Positions 3,757-18,429 of a stretch of DNA of 25,195 nt are shown piece by piece. The position numbers were made by a program, and so were the translations under genes. The DNA comes from a candidate division Zixibacteria bacterium SM23_81 (GTDB taxonomy: Bacteria > SM23-81): assembly GCA_001304015.1 (NCBI GenBank), contig LJUY01000039.1, forward strand, positions 1 to 25,195. The letters are read 5' to 3'. The notes beneath the pieces were generated by a model. It did not search any database. It was not told where the DNA came from and saw only the letters and a list, made by a program, of their open reading frames with translations. Numbering within the stretch: position 1 is the stretch's first letter; each line of letters opens with the position of its first letter.

Positions 3757-4404
3757 TTACGGTAGGTGCAGACGACAGGTCTGGCTTTTCCGGTCATATA
3801 TGTCCAAAGACTGGAAAAGGCACATAGCAAAAGCCCTGTGCCCGTAAGCATTGGCATGAAGGCTGTTGCTCATCCAGAAAAAATGGCTCTCTGGTTGCTC
3901 CTTCCAATAATGGGCATGATCGATGAGTGGAAGTTCATGATCACAGGCCACATGGCGGATAGCGTCCATGTATCTGGCGAAATGAGTTTCTCTTTCAGGG
4001 AAAAGGTCAGGTAGGATGGGACAGGTGGTCTGCAGCACTGCCAGGGCTCCGATGTCCCCAATCTGCTGCACCAAGCTGTTGAGGTTGGATCTAAACTCCT
4101 CTAAAATAATACCATTTTGCCGATCGCAATCGTTCATCCCAATCATCACAAATACTACATCCGGTCTGAACTGAGCGACTCTCCAATTGAGTCCTTCCAA
4201 CAGACTACGCGAGGTATCCCCGCTGATGGCTGTGTTGATGATCACGTCCATGGTGCGGTCCAGCTCAAAACGAACGCGCTCTGCAAAGAGCTCCACGTAA
4301 TCCCTGCACCCGAAGGTATGTAGTGCGCCGTGAGTGATGCTGTCGCCATAAAAGATCCATTTGACCGGTTTCTCCGATATCAGCAAGGCTTTCACTCTGT
4401 CCAT
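3757..4404 (-). CDS. SGNH/GDSL-family hydrolase
   Basis: The product has 215 residues. The start at 4404 is supported by AAGGAGT a few bases upstream on the minus strand. The SGNH blocks are clear: YGDSITHG with the nucleophile S22, ISGDTS with G62, GMNDC with N91, and NSLHANAYGH with the catalytic H183. The family hydrolyses ester bonds in lipids, acylated sugars or aryl esters. No signal peptide is visible, so it looks cytosolic. The Asp normally three residues before the active His (DxxH) is Asn here (N180), so a Ser-His dyad or altered activity is possible. It follows the LolA-like gene by 58 bases on the same strand and may be its last operon partner, which would suggest a lipid-related job. 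The substrate is unknown. Confidence 0.85.
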   Translation of the reverse strand: MDRVKALLISEKPVKWIFYGDSITHGALHTFGCRDYVELFAERVRFELDRTMDVIINTAISGDTSRSLLEGLNWRVAQFRPDVVFVMIGMNDCDRQNGIILEEFRSNLNSLVQQIGDIGALAVLQTTCPILPDLFPERETHFARYMDAIRHVACDHELPLIDHAHYWKEQPESHFFWMSNSLHANAYGHRAFAMCLFQSLDIYDRKSQTCRLHLP

Positions 4405-4462
4405 ATATCACTCCTTATGATCTCTTATCTTGGAATTACCTTCACATTCAACCTCCGGTTGT

Positions 4463-5233
4463 CTATCCTCGCAGAGCTGCTTTGGTCAATTTGTGATCCG
4501 GTATTTCCACGTCAAAATCGATGTCATCGATGATGTATTCGGTGCCCTCACCTTTAGAGAGCATGTCCTTGAAGATCATCCTCTTGGGATACCAGCGACC
4601 GTCCACCCGAAAGACCTCGGTGATACGAGTGGTCTTCAACAACTTGCCGCTCTTGGCGTAGCGCTCTTCTCTGAGGGGCAGCCAGCGTTCCATGTCCACC
4701 CAGATGCGCCTCGAATGGTAGGCGACATCCTCGACTCGGGCGGTCAGATTCACCAGCCAGCACGTTCGTCCCTCGGCCTCCTGACTTCCCTCCACCTGAG
4801 CCTGATATAGATCGATGAGAGATTCATTTTCCATCATGTCTTCATAGGACAGGTCCGATCCCATCATCGACTGCCTTAGCAGGTGGCCCGCGATGGTGAT
4901 GATGCGGTCGGTGGGCTCCGGGGTGTAGGTCCATAGTTTGTCACCCAGCTTCAACATCTTCTTGCCCTTCTCCCGCGCCGGGGAGAGATACTCGACGAAC
5001 GTATTCTCGTCGCCCTTCTTCCAGAACCGGGAGGTTATGGACCGGCTGCCCCGGCGGCCGTGGATGATCATGGTGGACACGCCAGTGGCTTGATCGATAA
5101 CCAGGTTGCGGTCCACTCTCTCCAGAATATCCTCTCCCGTGGGTGCCCGGGAGACGATCGTGAGAGAATCCTGATGGGTCAGGGCAGGTGTGGTGATAAG
5201 AAGGATGCCCAATATGATGATGGCCTTTTTCAT
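4463..5233 (-). CDS. LolA-like periplasmic protein (lipoprotein-sorting family)
   Basis: This 256-residue protein starts at ATG 5233, overlapping the upstream permease stop by ATGA, with AAGGAG eight bases upstream. A signal peptide covers residues 1-19 (hydrophobic IIILGILLITTPALT). The mature part fits the LolA-like outer-membrane lipoprotein-sorting family (PF17131): GRRGSRSITSRFW, FVEYLSPAREKGKKML, LGDKLWTYTPEPTDR, MMGSDLSYEDMM, and a late TRITEVFRVDGRWYPKRM. LolA-fold proteins are half-barrels that carry a lipid moiety across the periplasm. Here it is translationally coupled to FtsX-type ABC permeases, so it probably accepts a substrate pulled from the inner membrane. Whether the cargo is a lipoprotein or a free lipid cannot be read from sequence. 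Confidence 0.85.
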   Translation of the reverse strand: MKKAIIILGILLITTPALTHQDSLTIVSRAPTGEDILERVDRNLVIDQATGVSTMIIHGRRGSRSITSRFWKKGDENTFVEYLSPAREKGKKMLKLGDKLWTYTPEPTDRIITIAGHLLRQSMMGSDLSYEDMMENESLIDLYQAQVEGSQEAEGRTCWLVNLTARVEDVAYHSRRIWVDMERWLPLREERYAKSGKLLKTTRITEVFRVDGRWYPKRMIFKDMLSKGEGTEYIIDDIDFDVEIPDHKLTKAALRG

Positions 5234-6504
5234 ACCTCCAGCTCCTTGAAAAGTTGAGCCGTCTGGCGTTTGAATATTCTGATGCCCGAAATGGCGCTGC
5301 CCACCAGGGTGGCCAGCAGCCCCGGCAGGAAGCCTATGTAGTAGCTTGCGGGGGTGATCTTGGCGCGCATAATGTTAGCCATCAGCATGTTGGATCCCTT
5401 CGTCATGCTCGAGATATCCAGTCCCACCTCCTGAAGATAGTAGGAGAATCCCAGTCCAATGGCCGTTCCCAGGATGGAGCCGACGGTCCCGATGAGGATC
5501 GATTCCCCCAGCAGGGAACGGTACACATGCCCCTTTGACTCGCCGATGGCCAGACGCACACCCATCTCGCCGTAACGCCGGATGCCGGACATGAGCCCGG
5601 CGTTCCACAGCACCAAAGACATGACGAAGAAGAAGCCGAACAGGATGATGGCAACCCTGGAGTTGACCGTGTCCAGGTATTCTCCCAGGCCGCCCTGCTC
5701 CCTGAGGGTCAGCATCACTGGGGAGAATTCGTCCTCAGGTTGATGGATTTTGGAGTTGAAGTCGCGAGCGGTCTTTTTAGCGATCTTGTCGTCATAGATA
5801 AGGTTGGGAAAGAATCCAAGAACCTCTCCGGCGCTGTCTTCCATGTCGAGAGCGTACTGGACGTCCGACAGATTGGCGATGATGGCGTTCCGGTCCATAG
5901 GAGCGATGCCAAAGCGGACGCTCCCCACGATGGTGAAGTTCTGAACGGCCATGCCCCCGTGCGCCGTGGAGCTGACCAGGGTGGCCAGGTCTCCCATATC
6001 AGCCCCCAGGCGATTGGCGAACTCTTCACTGATCAGGATCTCTCCAGGCGCCTGGGGCAGATGACCCCTCACCAGAGCCTTCTTGAGGCCGAGTCGATCC
6101 CGCTCTCTTGAATTGGGGCCGAGAAGATCAAGGGCTATCCCAAAGGACGGTCCCTGGGAGCGGGTCTCGCCATGTTCGTCTGGAAGGTCGATGAGCCCTC
6201 CGAATTTGATCCGTGCCGTCCACTCCATGTGGGGATAATCTCCTTCCAAGTCCCCGATGAGGTCGCCCACGTTCAAGATGGCCAGATCGTTGGGCAGCTG
6301 GCGGGAGATGTCCCCGTACGCCCGTGTCATGACCTTCACATGCCCCGTGTCCAGCTTGGCGTTGCTGCGGACCATATCATCTATGATGCCGTGCATGAAG
6401 CAGTATCCCAGGATGGATGTCATCACGCCCGCAGTGACGATAATGACTGGGAAAAGGCTCCGGTGATGGTCCCTGATTAAGCCTTTGAGCAGAAATCTGG
6501 TCAT
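5230..6504 (-). CDS. ABC transporter permease, FtsX/LolE type (second)
   Basis: This 424-residue membrane protein has one N-terminal membrane segment (about 18-40), a large periplasmic region with MacB-like periplasmic core character, then three C-terminal segments from about residue 285 (VAIILFGFFFVMSLVLW, ILIGTVGSILGTAIGLGF, GFLPGLLATLVGSAISG). The cytoplasmic loop IRRYGEMGVRLAIGESK is the FtsX-family coupling motif that touches the ATPase. The start at 6504 overlaps the upstream permease stop (ATGA), and the stop overlaps the LolA-like start, so translation is coupled on both sides. The four-segment topology with a big periplasmic domain marks mechanotransmission or lipoprotein-extraction transporters such as LolCDE and MacB rather than solute importers. 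Confidence 0.87.
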   Translation of the reverse strand: MTRFLLKGLIRDHHRSLFPVIIVTAGVMTSILGYCFMHGIIDDMVRSNAKLDTGHVKVMTRAYGDISRQLPNDLAILNVGDLIGDLEGDYPHMEWTARIKFGGLIDLPDEHGETRSQGPSFGIALDLLGPNSRERDRLGLKKALVRGHLPQAPGEILISEEFANRLGADMGDLATLVSSTAHGGMAVQNFTIVGSVRFGIAPMDRNAIIANLSDVQYALDMEDSAGEVLGFFPNLIYDDKIAKKTARDFNSKIHQPEDEFSPVMLTLREQGGLGEYLDTVNSRVAIILFGFFFVMSLVLWNAGLMSGIRRYGEMGVRLAIGESKGHVYRSLLGESILIGTVGSILGTAIGLGFSYYLQEVGLDISSMTKGSNMLMANIMRAKITPASYYIGFLPGLLATLVGSAISGIRIFKRQTAQLFKELEV

Positions 6505-7679
6505 GATGTTTTCCCCCTGAGGGCATCCGTGGGCTTCAGCCTGGCGATCTTCGAGGCCGGTAGGAAACTGACGATGGTGACTGCGATGAGTACCAGCAGC
6601 GTGGTGCCCACTAGCAGGCGAAGCCCATAGCTAGGGTAAAGAGATTGGGGAAGAGCGATGCCGAAATCGGCCTGCATCGCTGGCATGGGCAATCCCTTGG
6701 CGAAGGTCAGGGCCAGCACTGGAATGCCATATATGGCACCGACGACGAGCGCCAGAAAACCATGCATAGCTCCCTCTAAGGTGAACAGCCCGATGACCTT
6801 GACGCGCTCCATGCCAAGGGCCATGAAGGTTCCGATCTCCTTGCGCCGACGCCAGATGGCCAGGACCTGGGTGTCGAAGATGGCCAGCAACCCCATGAAT
6901 AGAAGCAGGCCGTACAGGATGTTCGAGCTACCCGATTTCATCCTGACCAGCTCGGTGATCTCTTTGAGCAGAAAATTCAGGTCCCGGTGAACCCATGTGT
7001 GATTGCCGGATGGGACATCCGAGACATCCTCTGCAAGGACGACCAGGCTGGCCTCTTGGGGGGTGCGTAACATCTCGCGCAGGCCCTCCAGGGGGAGCCA
7101 GATCTGCCCCACGTCCACCGATGGTGCTGAAACGTTCATGATCTGCACGATCCGAACGTCATTGGCGTCGAAGGTGCCGTGAACATCGCGCCACCGGATA
7201 GTGACTTCATCACCCACTCTCAGTTTCGTTTGCTTAGCCATCTGGGCTCCAATGAGAGCAGGGGTGACGTCATCGTCTTCTTTTGAAAGATAGGCACTGG
7301 GGAGCTGGAGGATCTGCTGTTCGGGATCGATGCCCCTGAGGACCACAGACTGGATGCGGCCCTCGGGGAATATGGCCCCGGAGGTCACCAGGATGGGCGT
7401 GGCTGCGCCTCGGGATATCAATTCTGCCAGAGCGGGGGAGAGGGGAGCGTGGCTGTCCTCAAAGGTCAGCGGATCGTAGGGGTCATAATCTTTGTGCCAG
7501 AACTGACCTCCGCCTGCCTCATAGTCGATGGTGGCCTGCATGGCATATTTGTTCATGCCCTGGATGAAGCCCTGAACCCAGATGATCATCACGAAGGCCA
7601 GCGAGAGGACGAAGACATTTAGCCAGGTCCTGATTCCCGCACCCATGAGATTGCGAAATGCCAACTTAGCGATTAACAT
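6501..7679 (-). CDS. ABC transporter permease, FtsX/LolC type (first)
   Basis: This 392-residue protein starts at ATG 7679 with GAGGTGA just upstream, 14 bases after the ATPase stop. Membrane segments lie at about 18-40, 255-275, 300-325 and 350-380; residues 41-250 form a periplasmic domain. The coupling motif RRRKEIGTFMALGMER is typical of the FtsX family, and the end LPASKIARLKPTDALRG is the usual MacB/LolC C-terminus. It differs clearly from the downstream permease, so the transporter is a LolC/LolE-like heterodimer rather than a MacB-type homodimer. Its stop overlaps the next permease start (ATGA). The presumed role is extraction of a lipidated or amphipathic substrate from the inner-membrane outer leaflet. 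Confidence 0.88.
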   Translation of the reverse strand: MLIAKLAFRNLMGAGIRTWLNVFVLSLAFVMIIWVQGFIQGMNKYAMQATIDYEAGGGQFWHKDYDPYDPLTFEDSHAPLSPALAELISRGAATPILVTSGAIFPEGRIQSVVLRGIDPEQQILQLPSAYLSKEDDDVTPALIGAQMAKQTKLRVGDEVTIRWRDVHGTFDANDVRIVQIMNVSAPSVDVGQIWLPLEGLREMLRTPQEASLVVLAEDVSDVPSGNHTWVHRDLNFLLKEITELVRMKSGSSNILYGLLLFMGLLAIFDTQVLAIWRRRKEIGTFMALGMERVKVIGLFTLEGAMHGFLALVVGAIYGIPVLALTFAKGLPMPAMQADFGIALPQSLYPSYGLRLLVGTTLLVLIAVTIVSFLPASKIARLKPTDALRGKTS

Positions 7680-7693
7680 CGTTTCACCTCATA

Positions 7694-8401
7694 TCAATTG
7701 TACTGCGGCGTCGTTTCGATGTCCTCGGCGACCCTGCCGTCGTTCAGGGTGATCTTCCGCCGCAGGTACCCGATGACCTTTTCGTCGTGAGTGGCGAAGA
7801 TGAACGTAGATTGGAACTCCTCGTTCAGCTTGGCCATCATCTGGAGAACGTTGTGGGAGTTTTCAGCATCCAGGTTAGCCGTGGGCTCATCCGCCAGCAC
7901 GACCTTGGGTTTTTTCACCATGGCTCGGGCCACGGCCACCCGCTGGCTCTCGCCGCCGGACAGCTGTGAGGGGCGCGATGCAGCTCTGTCGGCCAGTCCC
8001 ACCCGATCGAGGATGCCCATGACGGCCTTTTTACGATCCTCGGTATCCATTCCCAGAAGCAGCAGGGGAAACTCAACGTTTTCGAACACGGTATAGACCG
8101 GCAGGAGATTATAGGTTTGGAAGATAAAACCCAGGTGCTCGTTGCGCAGCCGAGCCGACTCCCGGTGACTGAGTTCCTTGGTGTCTGTACCTATGACAAT
8201 GGCACTGCCGCTGGTGGGATAATCGAGAGCGCCGATAATGTTCAGCAAAGTGGTCTTGCCGGAGCCGCTGGGTCCCACCAGCCCAAGGAACTCGCCTTTT
8301 TGGACAGTCAGGTTCACGTCGTTTAGGGCGGTGAATTTACGGCCGCCAATGGGATACTGCTTGACCAGGTTTTCAGCGGTGATCAGGGCGCCGTTGTTCA
8401 T
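7694..8401 (-). CDS. ABC transporter ATP-binding protein, LolD/MacB type
   Basis: The start is ATG 8401 with GGAGG seven bases upstream. All ABC ATPase motifs are intact in this 235-residue protein: Walker A GPSGSGKTT (43-51), Q-loop Q95 in FIFQTYNLLP, signature LSGGESQR (147-154), Walker B VVLADEP (167-173), D-loop ANLDAEN and the switch His in FATHDEK. The length and the QTYNLLP segment fit the LolD/MacB/YtrE subfamily that energises FtsX-type permeases. It is a cytoplasmic subunit, and two copies would sit under the permease pair encoded downstream. It is the first gene after the octamer-repeat intergenic region and may have its own promoter there or be read from the TetR promoter. Confidence 0.93.
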   Translation of the reverse strand: MNNGALITAENLVKQYPIGGRKFTALNDVNLTVQKGEFLGLVGPSGSGKTTLLNIIGALDYPTSGSAIVIGTDTKELSHRESARLRNEHLGFIFQTYNLLPVYTVFENVEFPLLLLGMDTEDRKKAVMGILDRVGLADRAASRPSQLSGGESQRVAVARAMVKKPKVVLADEPTANLDAENSHNVLQMMAKLNEEFQSTFIFATHDEKVIGYLRRKITLNDGRVAEDIETTPQYN

Positions 8402-8486
8402 GTTTTAACCTCCATTAATTCGAAAATCGAGTAGAGAAAAGTAGGATTCCACACCCCACCGTACCACTCCAGGGGAATATAAATCC

Positions 8487-8632
8487 AAGGATTCAAGGAT
8501 CCAAGGATTCTAGGATTCAAGTCCCACCCACCCCCCTCTTAGGTGCAAAGATTTTAACTGTTCGGTTTTTGCCCTCGAATCCTCGAATCCTGGTGATGAA
8601 GGGATGAGAGGATGGGGAATCCTTGAATCCTA
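8487..8632. repeat. Inverted clusters of an 8-bp unit (AAGGATTC)
   Basis: Four tandem units run from 8487 to 8518 (AAGGATTC, AAGGATCC, AAGGATTC, TAGGATTC). The reverse complement appears as two tandem pairs at 8577-8592 (GAATCCTC, GAATCCTG) and 8617-8632 (GAATCCTT, GAATCCTA). The arms can pair into alternative long hairpins. This fills the 277-base space between the beta-barrel gene and the ABC ATPase gene; there is no coding signal in it. Confidence 0.8.
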
Positions 8633-8678
8633 TTTGATAAATGACCATGTTCTTTTCTCTATCCAGTTTTTGCTTTTC

Positions 8679-9815
8679 TCAGTGATTAAAAACGACCAAC
8701 ACCTCCCCCCCATAGCCTGATGACAGGATGTCACCTCTATACGGTAATTCGACGTCATCCCAGGTGGGATAATGAAACAGGCTCAGCTTCAGAATCCAGT
8801 TATCCCAGGTGCGTTGCCAACAGAGATACTGTGAATACTCCTTCTCATCCCACGAGTAAAAGCCCATGGCTGACAGATTGTCGAGATATCCCAAGGGGTA
8901 GTTCATGGAATATGCTGAGACTTGGCGGTCATCTTCCCACCCGAAAGGCCCCTCCGATGAAACGATGGCCATGTGCTCTCCCAGGACATGCAGGCCGTTG
9001 CCGATCCCCAGAGTGTAGTCCATGCCCAGGGTCATCATCTCCGTCCACTCGAAGGGCAGCGTATCGGACCTCTGCCGCTGTAGGACTGACTCGAACCAGA
9101 GGCCGATCTCGATGTCCCAGCGCCCATCCAGGGCGAGGCGGTTTTCGCGGAAATCGCCGCTGTCCATGGGCGGGGCAAGTACTTTCCTTGTATGAAAGGC
9201 AAAAGCCAGCTCGCCATTGAGAAACGGATACTGCAGGCGCCCACCGAATTCAGGCTTTCCCTCAACAGTTGGCAGGAGCTCAAAACCTTTGGTCTCATCA
9301 TTGCCGTAAAGTCCCCAGAACCAGAGGCTGGCGTTGTTCAGAGCATCGTATTTGAATCGGAGACCGTAGACGCCGTCGGTCAGGTTCAAGGGATCGCGTG
9401 GGTCCAACCTGTCGAACCACCTCAGCGGGCGCAGCAGCTGGGCCGGGCCAAAGTTTATTTTCTGCAAGCCGACGCGAGTCTCAGTCTGAGCGGTGGCGAA
9501 GCGAATTTTGAGTCTATAGAGCTCCACATCGGAGTCATCGGCATGGTCTGAACTGCTGGCAGAGATGAATCCATTCAGGGATATTTCCAAATCCAGGAAG
9601 TGGTTTTCCGCCAGAGATTGGGCCAAAGTGAACTGGGGAATGTATCGGAGACCCTGGTTGTAATACCAATCTCCACTGTCTCTGCCTTCTAGGTGCCAGC
9701 CTGAGGCCTGTCCCCGCAGATCGTATTCAACTGCTTCGGCATGTATTCCTTCAAAAGCCCATCCGACTATAATTAACCAGACAAAAAGCAGACGCTCTAA
9801 AAGGGATAGTCTCAT
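8679..9815 (-). CDS. Outer-membrane beta-barrel (porin-like) protein
   Basis: This 378-residue protein has an N-terminal signal peptide (LLFVWLIIVGWAF, cleavage probably after HA at about 26). The mature part alternates polar and hydrophobic residues with many aromatics, as in outer-membrane barrels, for example LDLEISLNGFIS, ASLWFWGLYGND and WILKLSLFHYP. The segment GLQKINFGPAQLLRPLRWFD with RLDPRDPLNLTDG looks like a conserved plug or loop of a barrel family, but I cannot name the family with confidence. The start overlaps the TetR stop by ATGA at 9812-9815, so the two are translationally coupled. Its position upstream of ABC, LolA-like and regulator genes suggests an outer-membrane acceptor or exit channel for the same substrate. 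Confidence 0.75.
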   Translation of the reverse strand: MRLSLLERLLFVWLIIVGWAFEGIHAEAVEYDLRGQASGWHLEGRDSGDWYYNQGLRYIPQFTLAQSLAENHFLDLEISLNGFISASSSDHADDSDVELYRLKIRFATAQTETRVGLQKINFGPAQLLRPLRWFDRLDPRDPLNLTDGVYGLRFKYDALNNASLWFWGLYGNDETKGFELLPTVEGKPEFGGRLQYPFLNGELAFAFHTRKVLAPPMDSGDFRENRLALDGRWDIEIGLWFESVLQRQRSDTLPFEWTEMMTLGMDYTLGIGNGLHVLGEHMAIVSSEGPFGWEDDRQVSAYSMNYPLGYLDNLSAMGFYSWDEKEYSQYLCWQRTWDNWILKLSLFHYPTWDDVELPYRGDILSSGYGGEVLVVFNH

Positions 9816-10420
9816 TCCCTGTGCTCCTGTTTCTCTACAGGCAATATGCCGAAGAAGAAGAAGCTATTGACCTCGCGGATGAATTCGGCATAATCGGTGT
9901 AAATTTTTCGCAAATCCTCGTCCAAGATAAGCTCGAGCAGCTTATTGAAAACTGCCAGGATGAACTCAGGGCGCATTTTGCGAATGTCGCCTCTCCCTTG
10001 AGCTTTGGTGACGAAATCAATGAAGAGCTGGCAATTCTTGACCTGGATCTCCTGCCAGAAATCCATCGTCTCTGGGACGGGGCCCAGCATCTCGTTGATA
10101 AACTCCCGGTTCATCTTGGATCCAAGCTCGATCTTGTATTGGATGAGCTTTTGCATCTTTTCTCTGAAAGGGATGTCTATGGCATCGATCTCATAGAGCT
10201 TTTTATATCCGTCTTCGATCATTCCATTCATGATGTGCCTGAACAGCGCCATCTTATTGGGGAAATATTTATAGAAGGTCATCTTGCTGGCGCCGGCTCT
10301 CTGGCAGATTTCTTCCACCGTCACCCGCTTTAGTCCGTGTTTGGTAAATAGATCGGTGGCCGTTGACACGATCTGCCTTTTCTTTTTGGAGATTCTTTTA
10401 CCGAAGTCCTGGGCCATCAT
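9812..10420 (-). CDS. TetR/AcrR-family transcriptional regulator
   Basis: I chose ATG 10420 (or the adjacent ATG 10417), 4-7 bases after AGGAGG, rather than the in-frame TTG at 10438, giving 202 residues. Residues about 11-60 form the TetR DNA-binding domain: KKKRQIVSTATDLFTKHGL, then VTVEEICQRAGASKMTFYKYFPNK with the typical recognition helix and YKYFPNK end. The C-terminal helical ligand domain is not assignable to a subgroup. TetR proteins repress their own operon until a small ligand binds. This one starts an operon with the beta-barrel gene (ATGA overlap) and lies just downstream of a strong promoter flanked by possible operator repeats, consistent with autoregulation. Confidence 0.92.
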   Translation of the reverse strand: MMAQDFGKRISKKKRQIVSTATDLFTKHGLKRVTVEEICQRAGASKMTFYKYFPNKMALFRHIMNGMIEDGYKKLYEIDAIDIPFREKMQKLIQYKIELGSKMNREFINEMLGPVPETMDFWQEIQVKNCQLFIDFVTKAQGRGDIRKMRPEFILAVFNKLLELILDEDLRKIYTDYAEFIREVNSFFFFGILPVEKQEHRE

Positions 10421-10479
10421 GGCGCCTCCTGAGCCCAAAATATTTACAGTTTATTAGAGATTTTACTATATTCGTATAC

Positions 10480-10508
10480 ATTATAACAAATCGTATGACA
10501 TTTATCAA
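10480..10508 (-). promoter_or_regulatory. Strong sigma-70 promoter for the TetR operon
   Basis: On the minus strand TTGATA (10508-10503) is followed after exactly 17 bases by a perfect TATAAT (10485-10480), about 60 bases before the TetR start. The surrounding DNA is unusually AT-rich for the window. TCGTATACA and TCGTATGACA (plus-strand sense, near 10472 and 10491) flank the -10 box as direct repeats and could be regulator contacts; this last point is a guess. Confidence 0.75.
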
Positions 10509-10621
10509 GAGTAAATTTACGTTTTCTATTAATATTTACGGAATTAGTAAAAAATGTTTCATTTGTATATATCATTAAGATGTATTCGGAGATGAAAGGC
10601 CAAAGTGAGTGCTCAAATTTG

Positions 10622-12474: not shown

Positions 12475-13173
12475 ATGTCTATATTCAGAGCTGTAATAGC
12501 GATTATCTTGATCACTTTTCCCGTCTCTGTCGCGGCCCAGACCTTGACACTTGCTGAAAAGACGGAAACTACCAGTCCATCGGTCTCAAACTCGCTCCGT
12601 GGCAAACATGGTATTGAACTCAGCATAGGACTTTTAAGTGAAATAAGCGCTTCTAGTGAAGTATCGGCGGGCAACGTAACGACTAAAAGCGAAGCGAATG
12701 GACTTATGGGATCGATTGCTTACAATTATTGGCTGGAGAATGACTTGGCCATCAATGTCCTGGTAGGCTTACTTGACGTAGATGCCACCTCGACTGTGGA
12801 TGGTTCAGATACATTTGTAGAGTTCTCTTCAGTGAGTCCCATGCTGTTTGGAGTAAAATTCCAACCCTTCGGGCAAGCCGTCAGCGATGTTCTGAGACCC
12901 TATTTCTCGGCATCTGTGGGACCTTACTTTGGACATTCTTCAAATGTCCGAACTGGAGTGAACACTGAAACGGAATCTTATACGGAAACGGCATTGGGTT
13001 CGCGGTTTGGGGCAGGTGCAGATCTGTCACTCAGCAGATTATTTACGCTCGGCGTTGGCCTCGGTTATCATCTTGTGAACGATTTTAATAAGCGTATTGG
13101 TGCGAAGAAGAATTATAGCAGTCCCGATTTTTCTCTCTCTTTGGGAATCGTTTTTGGGAGGGGGAAGCAATAA
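12475..13173 (+). CDS. Small outer-membrane beta-barrel protein
   Basis: ATG 12475 has a strong AGGAGG eight bases upstream. The 232-residue product has a signal peptide (VIAIILITFPVSVAA, cleavage before Q22), then a pattern of alternating strands typical of an 8-stranded OmpA/OprF-like barrel: IELSIGLLSEISASSEV, INVLVGLLDVDATSTV, LRPYFSASVGPYFGHSS, LFTLGVGLGYHLV and a final FSLSLGIVFG. Strands end in aromatic or basic residues, and external loops are Ser/Thr-rich. No enzymatic motif is seen. Its coding DNA is more AT-rich than that of the large gene after it. The gap to that gene is 34 bases, so they may be co-transcribed. The exact role is unknown. Confidence 0.75.
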   Translation: MSIFRAVIAIILITFPVSVAAQTLTLAEKTETTSPSVSNSLRGKHGIELSIGLLSEISASSEVSAGNVTTKSEANGLMGSIAYNYWLENDLAINVLVGLLDVDATSTVDGSDTFVEFSSVSPMLFGVKFQPFGQAVSDVLRPYFSASVGPYFGHSSNVRTGVNTETESYTETALGSRFGAGADLSLSRLFTLGVGLGYHLVNDFNKRIGAKKNYSSPDFSLSLGIVFGRGKQ

Positions 13174-13207
13174 TGGATCATATCCTTTTTAACAGCAACT
13201 AATCCTT

Positions 13208-15421
13208 GTGATCCATGAAGGAGTGAGAAGTTCCCTGAAGAGCCTTGTGATAACTGTTGGTCCGTTGCTTTTGACAGCCTTCCTGATAGTTACGGCTGAA
13301 GCGAGTACTCGCTACTCCGGCAGGGATGGCCAGCTGGAGATCCCCGTTCCTCGCATCGGCCGCCCCCCCAAGATCGATGGTCGGTTGGATGAGGATGTAT
13401 GGCAGCAGGCTCCCATTCTATGTGGTTTCACCCAGTTCATGCCCACAGATGGCGTGCCAGCCTGTGAGGAGACAGAGGCGCTGGTCTTCTATGATCACCA
13501 GGCCATCTACTTCGGCTTGAAGTGCTATTACCAGGATCCCTCTACCGTCAAAGCCACCCTGACCAACCGGGATGAGGCCTTCGTGGACGACTACGTCGGC
13601 ATCTGCCTGGATACCTACAATGACCAGCGCCGAGCCTTCATGTTCGTGTTCAATCCCCTGGGTGTGGTTGGGGACGGGGTCCGCATCGAGGGAGGCGACG
13701 AAGATTACACCCCGGATTTCACCGTATACTCCGATGGTCGCCTCACCGATGGCGGCTATGTGGTGGAAGTGGCCATCCCCTTCAAGAGCCTGCGCTTCCC
13801 CGGCAACGGGCCCATGACCTGGGGATTGAACGTTTTTCGCAAGACACGATCCCAGTCCATTCGCCTCTCCTGGGCGCCCATCGATCGCAATGAGAGCAAT
13901 CTCTTAGCCCAGTCCGGCCATCTGGTGGGTATCCGGGATGTCCAGCACTCCCGCAACATTGAGCTCAATCCCGTGTTCACAGGAGCGATGACGGGCCAGC
14001 TGGATGACCCCGACGACCTCGGTTCCCGCTTCGAGCGGGACTCCCCGAAACCGGAATTGGGTCTGAACCTCAAGTACCTCCTGTCGACAAACCTAGCTTT
14101 GGATGCCACGGTCAATCCCGACTTCAGCCAGGTGGAGGCCGACGCCGATGTGGTCGATATCAACGAGCGTTTCGCCATCTACTTTTCCGAAAAACGCCCC
14201 TTTTTCTTAGAGGGTAAGGACATCTACCAAACGCCCTATGAGGTATTTTACTCCCGGCGGATAGTCGATCCCATAGTTGGGGCCAAGATCTCGGGAAAGT
14301 TGGGCCCGGCATCGCTGGGATTTCTCAGCGCGGTGGACGACGACAGTTTGGGCAACGCGGCTACCAACGTGGCCCGGCTGAAGTGGGACGTTATGAACGA
14401 CTCGCACCTCGGCTTCCTGGCCACCGATCGCCGCGTCACGGGTTATTACAACAGCGTGGCCGGGGTAGACGGAATAGTGCGCCTGACCAAGCAAGAAACG
14501 TTCAGCTTTCAAGGCCTGGGCAGCTGGACCGATGATGTTAACGATGGAAAACTCCGCGATCCTGCCTGGTTCGCCGAGTTGAACCATAGCAGTCGCCATT
14601 TTAATATTTTCTTCAGAATGCAGGACGTCTTTCCTGATTTTCGAGCCCAGCTGGGCTACATTCCTCGGACCGATCAGGTGGAGTTGGCCGGCTTTTCCCA
14701 ATATAGCTACTTCGGCCCTGAAAACGGCCTGGTGGAATCCTGGTGTCCGGCGGTGTTCTACAAGCTGGTATACAACCATAAAGCGACGGGCTACCTGGAC
14801 CGGAAGACCGATTGGATAGTATCGCCCCAGTTCAACCTGAATCTGAGAGGGGGATGGGAGTGGGGGATGAGCTACGATCGGCTCTATACCTATTATGAGG
14901 ACGCCGCGTTTCCGGATCAGACGCAGATTTACACCTGGGGCTGCACGCCCCGCTGGCAGAAGATCCAGTTCGGTTGTTTGAGCCACTTTGGCGACACGCC
15001 AATTTACGATGAGGTCGTGCCTGGTAAGTACTGGTACGCGGAGCCCTGGGTGGATCTCTACCCTACCTCTCGGTTGAAACTGAACATGTGGCTTTGGGCT
15101 CAAGATGTCACCCGCCGAGCCGATGACAGCTTCTTCGCAAGGGCTCGCATCGCCCGTGTGCGGGCTGCTTACCAGTTTTCCCGGGAACTTTCCTTCCGGA
15201 CCATCGTGGAGGCCTCCCGGCGAAAGTATTATGCTGAGGGTGGCACTCTAGATGAGCTGTCAAAAAATGTCGTCGTCGATGTGCTGCTGAAGTACCAGCT
15301 GGACCCGGTAACCATCTTCTACATCGGCTGGGGCAACGTCTTCGGCGCCGATCTAGGTAACGACTATCGTCGGACTCAGGAGGGGGTGTTCGCAAAAGCC
15401 AGCTACTTGTGGAGATTGTGA
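13208..15421 (+). CDS. DUF5916-type protein with CBM9-like N-domain
   Basis: The product is up to 737 residues. The start is uncertain: GTG 13208 has no good ribosome site, while GTG 13223 or a later codon is possible, since GAAGGAG lies at 13217-13223. A signal sequence (VGPLLLTAFLIVTAEAS) is followed at about 45-235 by a CBM9-like beta-sandwich with KIDGRLDEDVWQQAP, a Cys pair region, YVGICLDTYNDQRRAFMF and EVAIPFKSLRF. Residues about 260-737 match the DUF5916 type: NPDFSQVEADADVVDINERF, then FSEKRPFFLEG, and long alternating strands ending YLWRL. Such proteins are frequent in FCB-group genomes and are thought to be outer-membrane barrels with a periplasmic or surface domain, sometimes near peptidase or sugar-use genes. 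The substrate is not known. Confidence 0.85.
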   Translation: MIHEGVRSSLKSLVITVGPLLLTAFLIVTAEASTRYSGRDGQLEIPVPRIGRPPKIDGRLDEDVWQQAPILCGFTQFMPTDGVPACEETEALVFYDHQAIYFGLKCYYQDPSTVKATLTNRDEAFVDDYVGICLDTYNDQRRAFMFVFNPLGVVGDGVRIEGGDEDYTPDFTVYSDGRLTDGGYVVEVAIPFKSLRFPGNGPMTWGLNVFRKTRSQSIRLSWAPIDRNESNLLAQSGHLVGIRDVQHSRNIELNPVFTGAMTGQLDDPDDLGSRFERDSPKPELGLNLKYLLSTNLALDATVNPDFSQVEADADVVDINERFAIYFSEKRPFFLEGKDIYQTPYEVFYSRRIVDPIVGAKISGKLGPASLGFLSAVDDDSLGNAATNVARLKWDVMNDSHLGFLATDRRVTGYYNSVAGVDGIVRLTKQETFSFQGLGSWTDDVNDGKLRDPAWFAELNHSSRHFNIFFRMQDVFPDFRAQLGYIPRTDQVELAGFSQYSYFGPENGLVESWCPAVFYKLVYNHKATGYLDRKTDWIVSPQFNLNLRGGWEWGMSYDRLYTYYEDAAFPDQTQIYTWGCTPRWQKIQFGCLSHFGDTPIYDEVVPGKYWYAEPWVDLYPTSRLKLNMWLWAQDVTRRADDSFFARARIARVRAAYQFSRELSFRTIVEASRRKYYAEGGTLDELSKNVVVDVLLKYQLDPVTIFYIGWGNVFGADLGNDYRRTQEGVFAKASYLWRL

Positions 15422-15842: not shown

Positions 15843-17248
15843 TCAGCGCAACAACAAGAGCTTTTTTGTCCTCACATAGTTGTCAGCATGCAACGTGTAG
15901 AAATAAATCCCACTGCTGACACCGATGGGTTGCCACTGGCGTCGGTATCTCCCCGCAGGCAGCCTTCCGGCAACAAGTTTAGCGACTTCTTGTCCCAGGA
16001 TGTTATGAATCTTCAATAAGACGTTGCTTTTCTTAGGTAAGTCAAATTCAATGGTTGTAATTGGATTAAACGGATTCGGATATGCTTGTCGAAGAGCGTA
16101 TTCTTTTGGCATATCGGAAGAATTATCCTCATTGATTCCCACAGATATTACTCCCCTGCCCAATAACTGAATCGAGCATAGGCTGTCGTTGTTGCCGACC
16201 CAGAGAGTGTCATAGTATGCCACCGTGTCTGTTGGCGTAAAGGAAACTGTCAGAGCGAGACTATCGCCAGGCGGAATCAGGCTATCTGCAGGACTCCAGT
16301 CATGGGTAAATGCTGGTTGATGATTGATGATGGAATGCAATATTAAAGTATCCAAACCGATATTTCCAATGGTCAAAGGTAAGTGGTTCTGTTGACCGAT
16401 AGTCACCACCCCAAAATCAAGCAAAGAATCGGACATGGTGATTATGGGCATCCCCTGGTTAAAAAAGTAACAGCCCATGTCAGCCATGGTGCTGTCAGGG
16501 TCGAGAGGTGAACTCGGATCTCCCGCATCAATGCAGGGGGATTGACTCTGCAAATGGAAATCGCTCAAAATAGGAGCTACAAATAGCGGATCGAGGTAAA
16601 TGTTACTGTATACATCACAAGAATCACCGTTGGCGTTGACTCCAGTGAGTGTGCCCAGACCTGATGGTACAGTCCCACCAAAATTTGTTAATCCAGATTG
16701 AGGGAGAAAATCGCTGTAGGATATCATGGTACTGCTGCCGCTGGCAAAATAAATATTATACCACACATTCTCCTGGAATATACTATTTTGCAGGGTCATA
16801 GAATCCTATGATGAAACGTGAATCCCTGCATCTTGCTGTATCCCTGCTGAATTCTGAAAAAAGTCGCAGTGATCAATAGTGGGATTGCTGTTATCGCCCA
16901 CATAAATTCCTCCTCCGAAACCTCCGATCTGACCGTTATCAGAAAAAATGCAATGGGAAATTAGTGGACTGGAGTTCTCCACATAAATGGCATGTCCTCT
17001 ATTACTCATAACCGTATTTTCACTGAAATAACAGTCAGTAACCGATCCCGGGCAATTTGAGATCCAGATTCCACCGCCATCCCATTCTGCTGTGTTATTG
17101 GTAAAAATGCTTCCGGAAACAGATACATTGCTTTCACGCGCTGCAATACCACCTCCGGATGGGTTATAACTCGAAGTCGAAAAACTTGTATTATTGATGA
17201 AAGTGCAGTTTGCAACCACTAAATTACCGCCATTATTAATGTAAGTTC
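15843..17248 (-). pseudogene. Decayed beta-helix protein with T9SS-type sorting domain
   Basis: One reading frame runs from 17248 down to the TGA at 15843, interrupted by a single in-frame TAG at 16806-16808; without it about 468 residues remain. The 5' part, including any start and signal peptide, is missing where the IS element begins. The remaining domains are right-handed beta-helix turns rich in CxFxxN (VANCTFINNTSF, ISHCIFSDNG, IDHCDFFQNSAG), then LQNSIFQENVWYN and a LamG-free linker ending CIDAGDPSSPLDPDS. A choice-of-anchor/ASH-like domain follows (LLDFGVVTIGQQNHLPLTI), and a Por sorting domain (AYPNPFNPITTIEFDLP, NILGQEVAKL, SSGIYFYTL, ending LLLLR). The intact ancestor would have been exported by the type IX system. 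Two neighbouring genes end in TAG, so this amber codon is most simply a mutation. Confidence 0.85.
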
Positions 17249-18429
17249 GGTTGTGTCCCTAAATTGGTGTAAAATGATGGTGACATAGAAAAGGTCATCG
17301 CTTTCCTGAGGGAGAGGGTTATCTTTTGGTCATTCCAATCACCAAAAACCCTTTTCCCAGGAGGATGGCGATGACCCAGAAGAAAGATAACGCATCGTGT
17401 CCCTCAGTGCAAGAGGCTTTGATCAACAATCCTGATTTTCTCAGACAGATTGTTCAGCAGGTCTGTCAGGATCTTTTACAAACAGAACTGGATCGCTTTT
17501 TAGAAGCTGGTCCCTATGAACGCACTCAGAGCAGAAAGGGGTATCGCAACGGCCGGCGTCCCAGGACCCTGATGACGCGAGTGGGCTCTGTGGAGCTGCT
17601 GGTGCCCCGGGATCGGGAAGGTCGTTTTCAGAGCGAACTGTTTGAGCGCTATCAGCGCAGTGAGAAGGCCCTGGTGCTGACCCTGCAGCAGATGGTTCTC
17701 AAGGGGGTCTCCACCCGCAAGGTCCGGGAGATCACCGAGCGGCTCTGTGGCACTGAGTTCTCCAAGTCCCAGGTCTCTCGGTTGACCCAGCAGCTCGATG
17801 AGGTGCTCTGTTCATGGCGCAAACGCTCTTTGAAAGGCCACTATCGCTATCTGATCGTGGACACCCACTGCGAGCATGTCCGTCAGGATCACGAGGTTTT
17901 CTCCCAGGGGGTGTTGATCGTGATGGGGGTGCGTAAGTCGGGTCATCGGGAGATGCTGGCCGTGGACGTGGGTCTGACCGAGAACGAGGTATTCTGGTCT
18001 GATCTGTTTAAAGAGCTCCACCAGCGAGGGCTCAGAGGCGTCCAGCTGGTGGTCTCCGATGATCACCAGGGGCTGGTGGCTGCCATCAGGCGACATTTTC
18101 AGGGCTGTCAGTGGCAACGCTGCCAGGTGCACTTTTTGAGAAATCTCATGAAACTGGTCTCTCGCCAAAGGCGCCGGGCGCTGGCCCGGACCCTGAAAGA
18201 TCTCTTTGGGGCCCCGGATCTAACACAAGCCCTGGCGCGTCTCGAGGCTCTGGTCACCTTCTATGAAAAGCAGTATCCAAAGATCGCTGACAAGCTGGAA
18301 GCGGAGGCTGAGCAGACCCTGACCTGCTTCCACTTCCCGGAGTCACAGATGAAATCTTAGCTCCACAAATGGCAGTAACGGTCTCTTCCTCAGGATAGAC
18401 CTTTTTACACACAATTTTGGACTTGACCC
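17249..18429 (+). mobile_element. Internally deleted IS256-family element
   Basis: The element, about 1.18 kb, carries a mutator-type transposase gene. Imperfect terminal inverted repeats can be seen: left 17249-17274 (GTCCCTAAATTGGTGTAAAA) and right 18403-18429, whose reverse complement reads GTCCAAAATTGTGTGTAAAA. Complete relatives are usually about 1.3-1.4 kb, so about 0.2 kb appears lost near the 3' end of the transposase gene. No matching 8-9-base target duplication is evident in the flanks. The left end abuts the truncated beta-helix gene. Confidence 0.75.
17371..18360 (+). pseudogene. IS256/mutator transposase lacking its C-terminus
   Basis: The start is ATG 17371, six bases after AGGAGG (17359-17364). 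The 329 residues show the IS256/mutator family: RKGYRNGRRPRTL, RVGSVELLVPRDREG, the region LQQMVLKGVSTRKVREIT, YLIVDTHCEHVR with the first catalytic Asp (D164), LVVSDDHQGLVAAI with the second (D230), and GCQWQRCQVHFLRN. The family usually has about 400 residues, with the catalytic Glu in a C-terminal segment after FYDFP-like sequence (RTTN...E). Here the frame reaches CFHFPESQMKS and stops at TAG, so the Glu and about 70 residues are missing. It should be unable to transpose unless helped by an intact copy elsewhere in the genome. Confidence 0.85.

Follow-up and report, generated by a model that had tools for sequence, protein, structure and literature searches.

A conserved operon of a LolCDE-like ABC transporter, a soluble LolA-like carrier and an outer-membrane barrel, and its candidate role in the export of hydrophobic molecules or lipids

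Little is understood about how very hydrophobic molecules get through the aqueous periplasm and the outer membrane. AmeABCD of Castellaniella defragrans is composed of a DUF1302 barrel (AmeA), a DUF1329 protein of the LolA superfamily (AmeB), a YCF48-like protein (AmeC), and an HAE3 pump of the resistance-nodulation-division (RND) family; cells from which ameABCD has been deleted are less tolerant of apolar monoterpenes and accumulate more Nile Red (PMC6394551). Related clusters carrying this outer module of barrel and carrier have been tied to long-chain alkanes, on which the outer-module homologues are induced (PMC6304351), to benzene and phenanthrene (PMC13101534), and to Tween 20, growth on which requires the outer-module homologues (PMC10866462). 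The closest published proposal for a version driven by an ABC transporter is the Borrelia BBJ23-29 cluster (PMC13078400). It differs from the locus described here in that its barrel is Omp85/BamA-like, its permease is proposed to be homodimeric, and two TPR proteins are present; no DUF1302-type barrel is reported for it. The subject of this work is a locus in a 25,195-nucleotide stretch of DNA (hereafter, in its entirety, the window), which is contig LJUY01000039.1 (C43) of the 3.07-Mb, 99-contig assembly of candidate division Zixibacteria bacterium SM23_81. In it a barrel gene and a LolA-like carrier gene accompany a LolCDE-like ABC transporter. A literature search among open-licence PMC papers found no description of such an ABC-barrel-carrier operon.

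All seven open reading frames (ORFs) of the locus are co-oriented, as the original prediction had it, and lie on the minus strand; their assignments are confirmed by Pfam domains or, for the barrel, by its structural model. Read in the direction of transcription, a TetR-family regulator (9812–10420; Pfam TetR_N) precedes the barrel (8679–9815), which possesses a signal peptide and is modeled with 18 strands. After a gap of exactly 277 bases (8402–8678) come a LolD/MacB-type ATPase (7694–8401; Pfam ABC_tran), in which Walker A, signature, and Walker B motifs are all intact, permease 1 (6501–7679; Pfam FtsX and MacB_PCD), the distinct permease 2 (5230–6504; Pfam FtsX), and the carrier (4463–5233). 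The three 4-base ATGA overlaps noticed earlier, at 5230, 6501, and 9812, are exact; at the last of these the stop codon of the regulator overlaps the start of the barrel. The carrier matches PF17131 (LolA_like) with an E value of 2.9e-52 and, having a signal peptide without a lipobox Cys, is by its sequence a soluble periplasmic protein.

The link between barrel and ABC genes was at first an inference, which gene-neighbourhood comparison now bears out. With the barrel as query, genome contigs yielded 14 loci, distributed over Krumholzibacteriota, Aminicenantes, and Bacteroidota; the closest barrels are those of Candidatus Krumholzibacteriota, and by this similarity the source genome would probably fall in that phylum. 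In all 12 informative loci, drawn from three phyla, the ATPase, permease 1, permease 2, and LolA-like genes come directly after the barrel for as far as the contig extends. One of the other two (L009) lies on a contig that stops at the barrel, and in the same genome the ABC and LolA genes sit on a separate contig; the second, the only true exception, is a Bacteroidales genome, in which a TetR-barrel pair (L010) is found apart from the ABC-LolA genes on a different contig (L134). In this latter genome the ABC-LolA operon is itself broken up (L134:1-8000), with an MFS transporter between the permeases.

The barrel profile matched 15 genomes in a domain-wide sample of 290: that of the window, 13 with adjacent ABC genes, and one in which the contig breaks. 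Arrangements vary in detail; the barrel of G058 adjoins a permease, with no ATPase recognised there, and that of G107 comes after the LolA gene. Among 395 genomes of Bacteroidota, the phylum of locus L007, 12 carry the barrel, namely L007 itself and 11 others, all of them clustered. The total, in collections that possibly share some genomes, is 36 relatives from Krumholzibacteriota, Aminicenantes, Bacteroidota, and other distant groups in which barrel and ABC genes have stayed neighbours, the LolA-like gene being there too in nearly all of them. Pairwise distances between barrels track those of the ABC and carrier proteins (r 0.85-0.88 over 29 loci; 0 of 999 permutations as high), a correlation made without species-tree control and of the kind expected for co-inherited genes. 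The case that barrel, ABC, and LolA-like genes are one conserved unit across phyla is strong. The opposite pattern of barrel-TetR pairs mostly lacking ABC genes, which would have told against the link, was not seen, for cases of the barrel without ABC genes are very rare.

Permease 2 (E at most 1e-20) is present in 35 of the 290 sample genomes, and the ABC part is therefore not rare; 29 of the 35 have such a barrel beside the ABC genes, a count which is partly circular because the profile for the divergent barrels was built from neighbours. A TetR homologue of at least 60 bits was present in 12 of 29 loci, so regulation varies and TetR is optional. The earlier proposal of a TetR-controlled, inducible pathway fits the window in this respect, but most of the relatives that were looked at are without the regulator. 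In one cluster permease 1 occurs as two tandem copies (L149:7869-10378).

The barrel sequence has no match in Pfam, NCBIfam, or PDB, and falls below the Pfam cut-off for DUF1302. Its AlphaFold2 model (pLDDT 78.9, pTM 0.72) has as nearest solved folds, among the matches listed, OccK/OprD and ChiP (Z 23.6) and AlgE (Z 21.6), all of which are channels; Omp85 is not among these listed matches and may be present lower down. The most conserved segment, at approximately residues 112-149 (GLQKINFG...RPL.WFD..DPRDPL.LTDGVYG), lies between strands 5 and 6 and is modeled partly with low confidence. Profile comparison related the window-type barrels to DUF1302 at 92%; ten divergent barrels that neighbour ABC genes matched the window type at 98.4% and DUF1302 at 99.4% over 349 columns, and seven unrelated control proteins stayed below 1%. 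This test is independent of the circular count of 29 in 35. The profiles point to the barrel as a remote member of the DUF1302 superfamily.

The kinship extends to the neighbouring genes. As in AmeABCD, a LolA-superfamily carrier (PF17131) is encoded in the same operon as the barrel. In the 290-genome sample, DUF1302 barrels have a LolA-family carrier, as scored with the window-type profile, alongside in 14 of 20 loci and a large RND-like gene nearby in 15 of 20; where Pfam was applied to these loci, MMPL was found in all five engines tested and both PF17131 and DUF1329 in all five carriers. Given the homologies of barrel and carrier to the RND-driven systems, one outer module appears to occur with two engines, either an RND pump or a LolCDE-like ABC transporter, and the window system is most likely the AmeABCD barrel-carrier module with a LolCDE-type engine replacing the RND pump. 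Inspection of L161-L187 showed DUF1302 barrels mostly adjoining PF17131/DUF1329 carriers and RND pumps, at times with two RND genes (L191, L192). At L100:810-3923, an MlaC gene and an MMPL/RND pump lie upstream of a LolA-permease-permease-ATPase-barrel cluster, placing both lipid machineries side by side.

The engine has the attributes of a type VII (MacB/LolC/FtsX) ABC exporter, with an FtsX C-terminal domain, a periplasmic core, a LolD-type ATPase, and the corresponding fold of permease 1. PF02687, the FtsX C-terminal domain, is above cut-off in both permeases, which likely form a heterodimer; PF12704, the periplasmic core, is above cut-off in permease 1 only (permease 2 scores 17.1 vs 27). 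The model of permease 1 (pLDDT 79.9) is closest to LolE (Z 25.7) and LolC (24.6), followed by MacB-like folds (20.9). At the LolC Hook region it has a shorter hairpin and an invariant RWRD..G.FDA motif, an observation from sequence alignment only for which no Hook is claimed.

Despite these folds, the proteins are below the cut-offs of the Lol families. The permeases score 52.7 and 27.3 bits with TIGR02212 (LolC/E; cut-off 362.45), and the ATPase 248.1 with TIGR02211 (LolD; cut-off 307.75), although the latter test is weak because the lolD-like gene belonging to the genome's own Lol system misses it too (286.9). The carrier (P0002) matches PF17131 rather than the LolA family PF03548, for which there is no match in the whole assembly, and is the one strong PF17131 match in this genome. 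No lipoprotein receptor of the LolB kind is found within the window locus; a DUF4292/LolB1-like lipoprotein is encoded elsewhere (C35). At a separate locus of the same genome lie a permease that does pass the LolC/E cut-off (380.3 vs 362.45) and the lolD-like gene, beside an ORF which we take to be lysS. Because an ordinary LolC/E-LolD pair is present, the window locus is a second, different system, in agreement with the original prediction. Two adjacent LolA-like proteins matching DUF5686 in this genome (L036:5233-6853) are a possible further carrier pair.

Solved relatives of the LolCDE-like engine extract lipidated cargo outward. This, together with the genetics of the RND versions, makes export of a hydrophobic molecule or lipid the best reading, and the locus is on balance probably an inducible, ATP-driven trans-envelope exporter of a hydrophobic or amphiphilic small molecule or lipid. 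Greasy cargo would leave the inner membrane by an ATP-driven route and pass via the soluble carrier to a dedicated outer-membrane channel: the LolA-like protein would accept it in a hydrophobic cavity and cross the periplasm, and the barrel would receive the carrier, the cargo exiting through, or sideways out of, the 18-strand channel. The regulator probably keeps the operon repressed as long as it has no ligand resembling the cargo. What is observed is which genes the locus contains, their clustering in relatives, the folds, and the homology of the outer half to the RND-driven AmeABCD-type module; several considerations nevertheless weigh against this picture. Its direction, cargo, hand-over contacts, and TetR ligand are what we infer. 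The link between barrel and DUF1302 is remote and was made in part via intermediates picked for their neighbouring ABC genes. Growth on some hydrophobic substrates depends on homologous outer modules, an observation that would also allow uptake, and TetR is missing from most relatives, so control of a detoxification type is not a defining trait.

Four other explanations were considered. The operon might be a dedicated anterograde transporter that delivers an endogenous envelope lipid (a glycolipid, hopanoid, sphingolipid, or similar) to the outer membrane via the barrel. Bilayer extraction of the LolCDE type and a LolA-fold carrier suit lipids, and a special lipid would be in keeping with the sporadic occurrence (12 of 395 Bacteroidota). 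In the relatives inspected, however, no gene for lipid biosynthesis stood out as a conserved neighbour of the operon, and the barrel fold matches listed are of the channel type rather than the LptD or Omp85 types, which leaves this explanation possible but unlikely.

A second lipoprotein route, in which selected lipoproteins travel by the LolA-like carrier to the barrel and perhaps to the cell surface, is more doubtful still. It would accord with the LolE/LolC-like fold of permease 1 and with the same role proposed for the Borrelia BBJ23-29 cluster (PMC13078400), but the ATPase and permeases score under the NCBIfam LolD and LolC/E cut-offs, a canonical LolC/E is already present in the genome, OprD/AlgE-like 18-strand barrels are no known lipoprotein exit, and where an RND pump drives the outer module, its substrates are apolar compounds. 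Of the two kinds of cargo originally predicted, a lipid is still part of the favoured reading and a specific lipoprotein has lost ground: a channel-type, OprD/AlgE-like barrel related to DUF1302, and the use of the same module with RND pumps for apolar compounds, make a hydrophobic small molecule or lipid the likelier cargo.

Import, or retrograde removal, is improbable to a greater degree. Here the barrel would admit a hydrophobic compound, the carrier would ferry it inward, and the ABC complex would insert it into the inner membrane, which would fit the need for outer-module homologues in growth on Tween 20 (PMC10866462) and their induction on long-chain alkanes (PMC6304351). Against it, loss of AmeABCD increases dye accumulation rather than reducing it (PMC6394551), and LolCDE and MacB, which are the solved relatives of such an ABC transporter, work outward.

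That the ABC-LolA and TetR-barrel genes are unrelated neighbours, as the 277-base repeat-rich gap and the one Bacteroidales genome with the parts on different contigs (L010, L134) might suggest, is scarcely credible and largely refuted by the adjacency data, as barrel and ABC genes adjoin in 36 other loci with gaps mostly below 100 bases, the split genome still has both parts, and the gap of the window holds a dispersed repeat.

The gap was correctly described as repeat-rich, mainly because positions 8486–8631 (no strand assigned) belong to this dispersed repeat, which lies outside the conserved system. These approximately 146 bases match eight other, longer copies in the genome at 70-81% identity, besides several fragments; the repeat has inverted arms of the AGGATTCAAGG type and is possibly a miniature inverted-repeat transposable element (MITE)-like element. 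The gap is mostly this repeat, inserted in this genome or lineage; a few relatives also have long gaps. A conserved terminator, which would have argued against a single unit, was ruled out: the terminator-like match at 8460–8440 is weak and beside the repeat, and most relatives have no long gap. Terminator scans of the gap did no better than shuffles, and its RNA folding z was only -1.15.

Upstream, the regulator was listed as an ORF of 9812–10438, the TTG at 10438 being a mechanical start; ATG 10420, behind AGGAGG, is the more likely start codon. A putative sigma-70-like promoter for the operon on the minus strand (10480–10508; TTGATA, 17 nt, TATAAT, with TG before the -10, an extended -10) matches 11 of 12 consensus bases; this is a consensus match only, in a scan that gave 9 sites vs 5.6 expected. 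An imperfect palindrome (10516–10551) and short inverted repeats farther upstream also precede the regulator, for which no operator is claimed. At the other end, the SGNH/GDSL hydrolase (3757–4404; Pfam Lipase_GDSL_2), with its catalytic blocks present, is a co-oriented neighbour. Its proposed membership does not hold, since it lacks a signal peptide and was not found beside the relatives inspected. Elsewhere the window encodes a small OMP_b-brl barrel followed by a CBM9/DUF5916 protein (12475-15421), another outer-membrane gene pair; a protein that combines an Ig-like domain with a Por_Secre_tail sorting domain, a mark of type IX secretion (15843-16799); and a Mutator-family transposase (17326-18360) adjoining a right-handed beta-helix fragment (16806-17219).

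In comparison with known systems, the window barrel shares its 18-strand fold with the OprD/Occ channels and AlgE (Z 21-24), whereas no sequence similarity to them is detectable and this analysis turned up none that is partnered by an ABC transporter and a LolA-like carrier. MacAB-TolC is likewise a type VII ABC exporter that reaches the outer membrane, but it does so with a MacA adaptor and TolC duct where the window has a soluble carrier and a monomeric-type barrel, and permease 1 is nearer to LolC/E. With LolABCDE the locus has in common heterodimeric FtsX permeases, a LolD-like ATPase, and a LolA-fold soluble carrier, LolE/LolC being the closest folds of permease 1. It differs in that the route terminates in a barrel and not in the lipoprotein LolB, that its proteins are below the Lol family cut-offs, and that it is TetR-linked and coexists with a canonical LolC/E-LolD. 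AmeABCD and similar MMPL/DUF1302/DUF1329 clusters resemble it in their remotely homologous barrel, their carrier of the same LolA superfamily (PF17131 and DUF1329 overlap), and the placing of barrel, carrier, and engine in one cluster; they have an RND pump in place of the LolCDE-like engine, the window locus lacking an HAE3/MMPL protein, and the locus has no YCF48-like AmeC and a barrel of 378 rather than about 605 residues. We tentatively suggest, as plausible if somewhat short of probable, a widespread class of exporters that combine a DUF1302-superfamily barrel and a soluble LolA-like carrier with exchangeable RND or LolCDE-like ABC engines. In such a class, a diffusing carrier would do the work for which classical efflux pumps use an adaptor and a duct in the periplasm. 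The compact operon, with an ABC engine of the lipoprotein-release type, a soluble carrier, and a channel of its own, offers a testable model, and it suggests that the RND-driven hydrocarbon systems and the Lol pathway have interchangeable parts in common.

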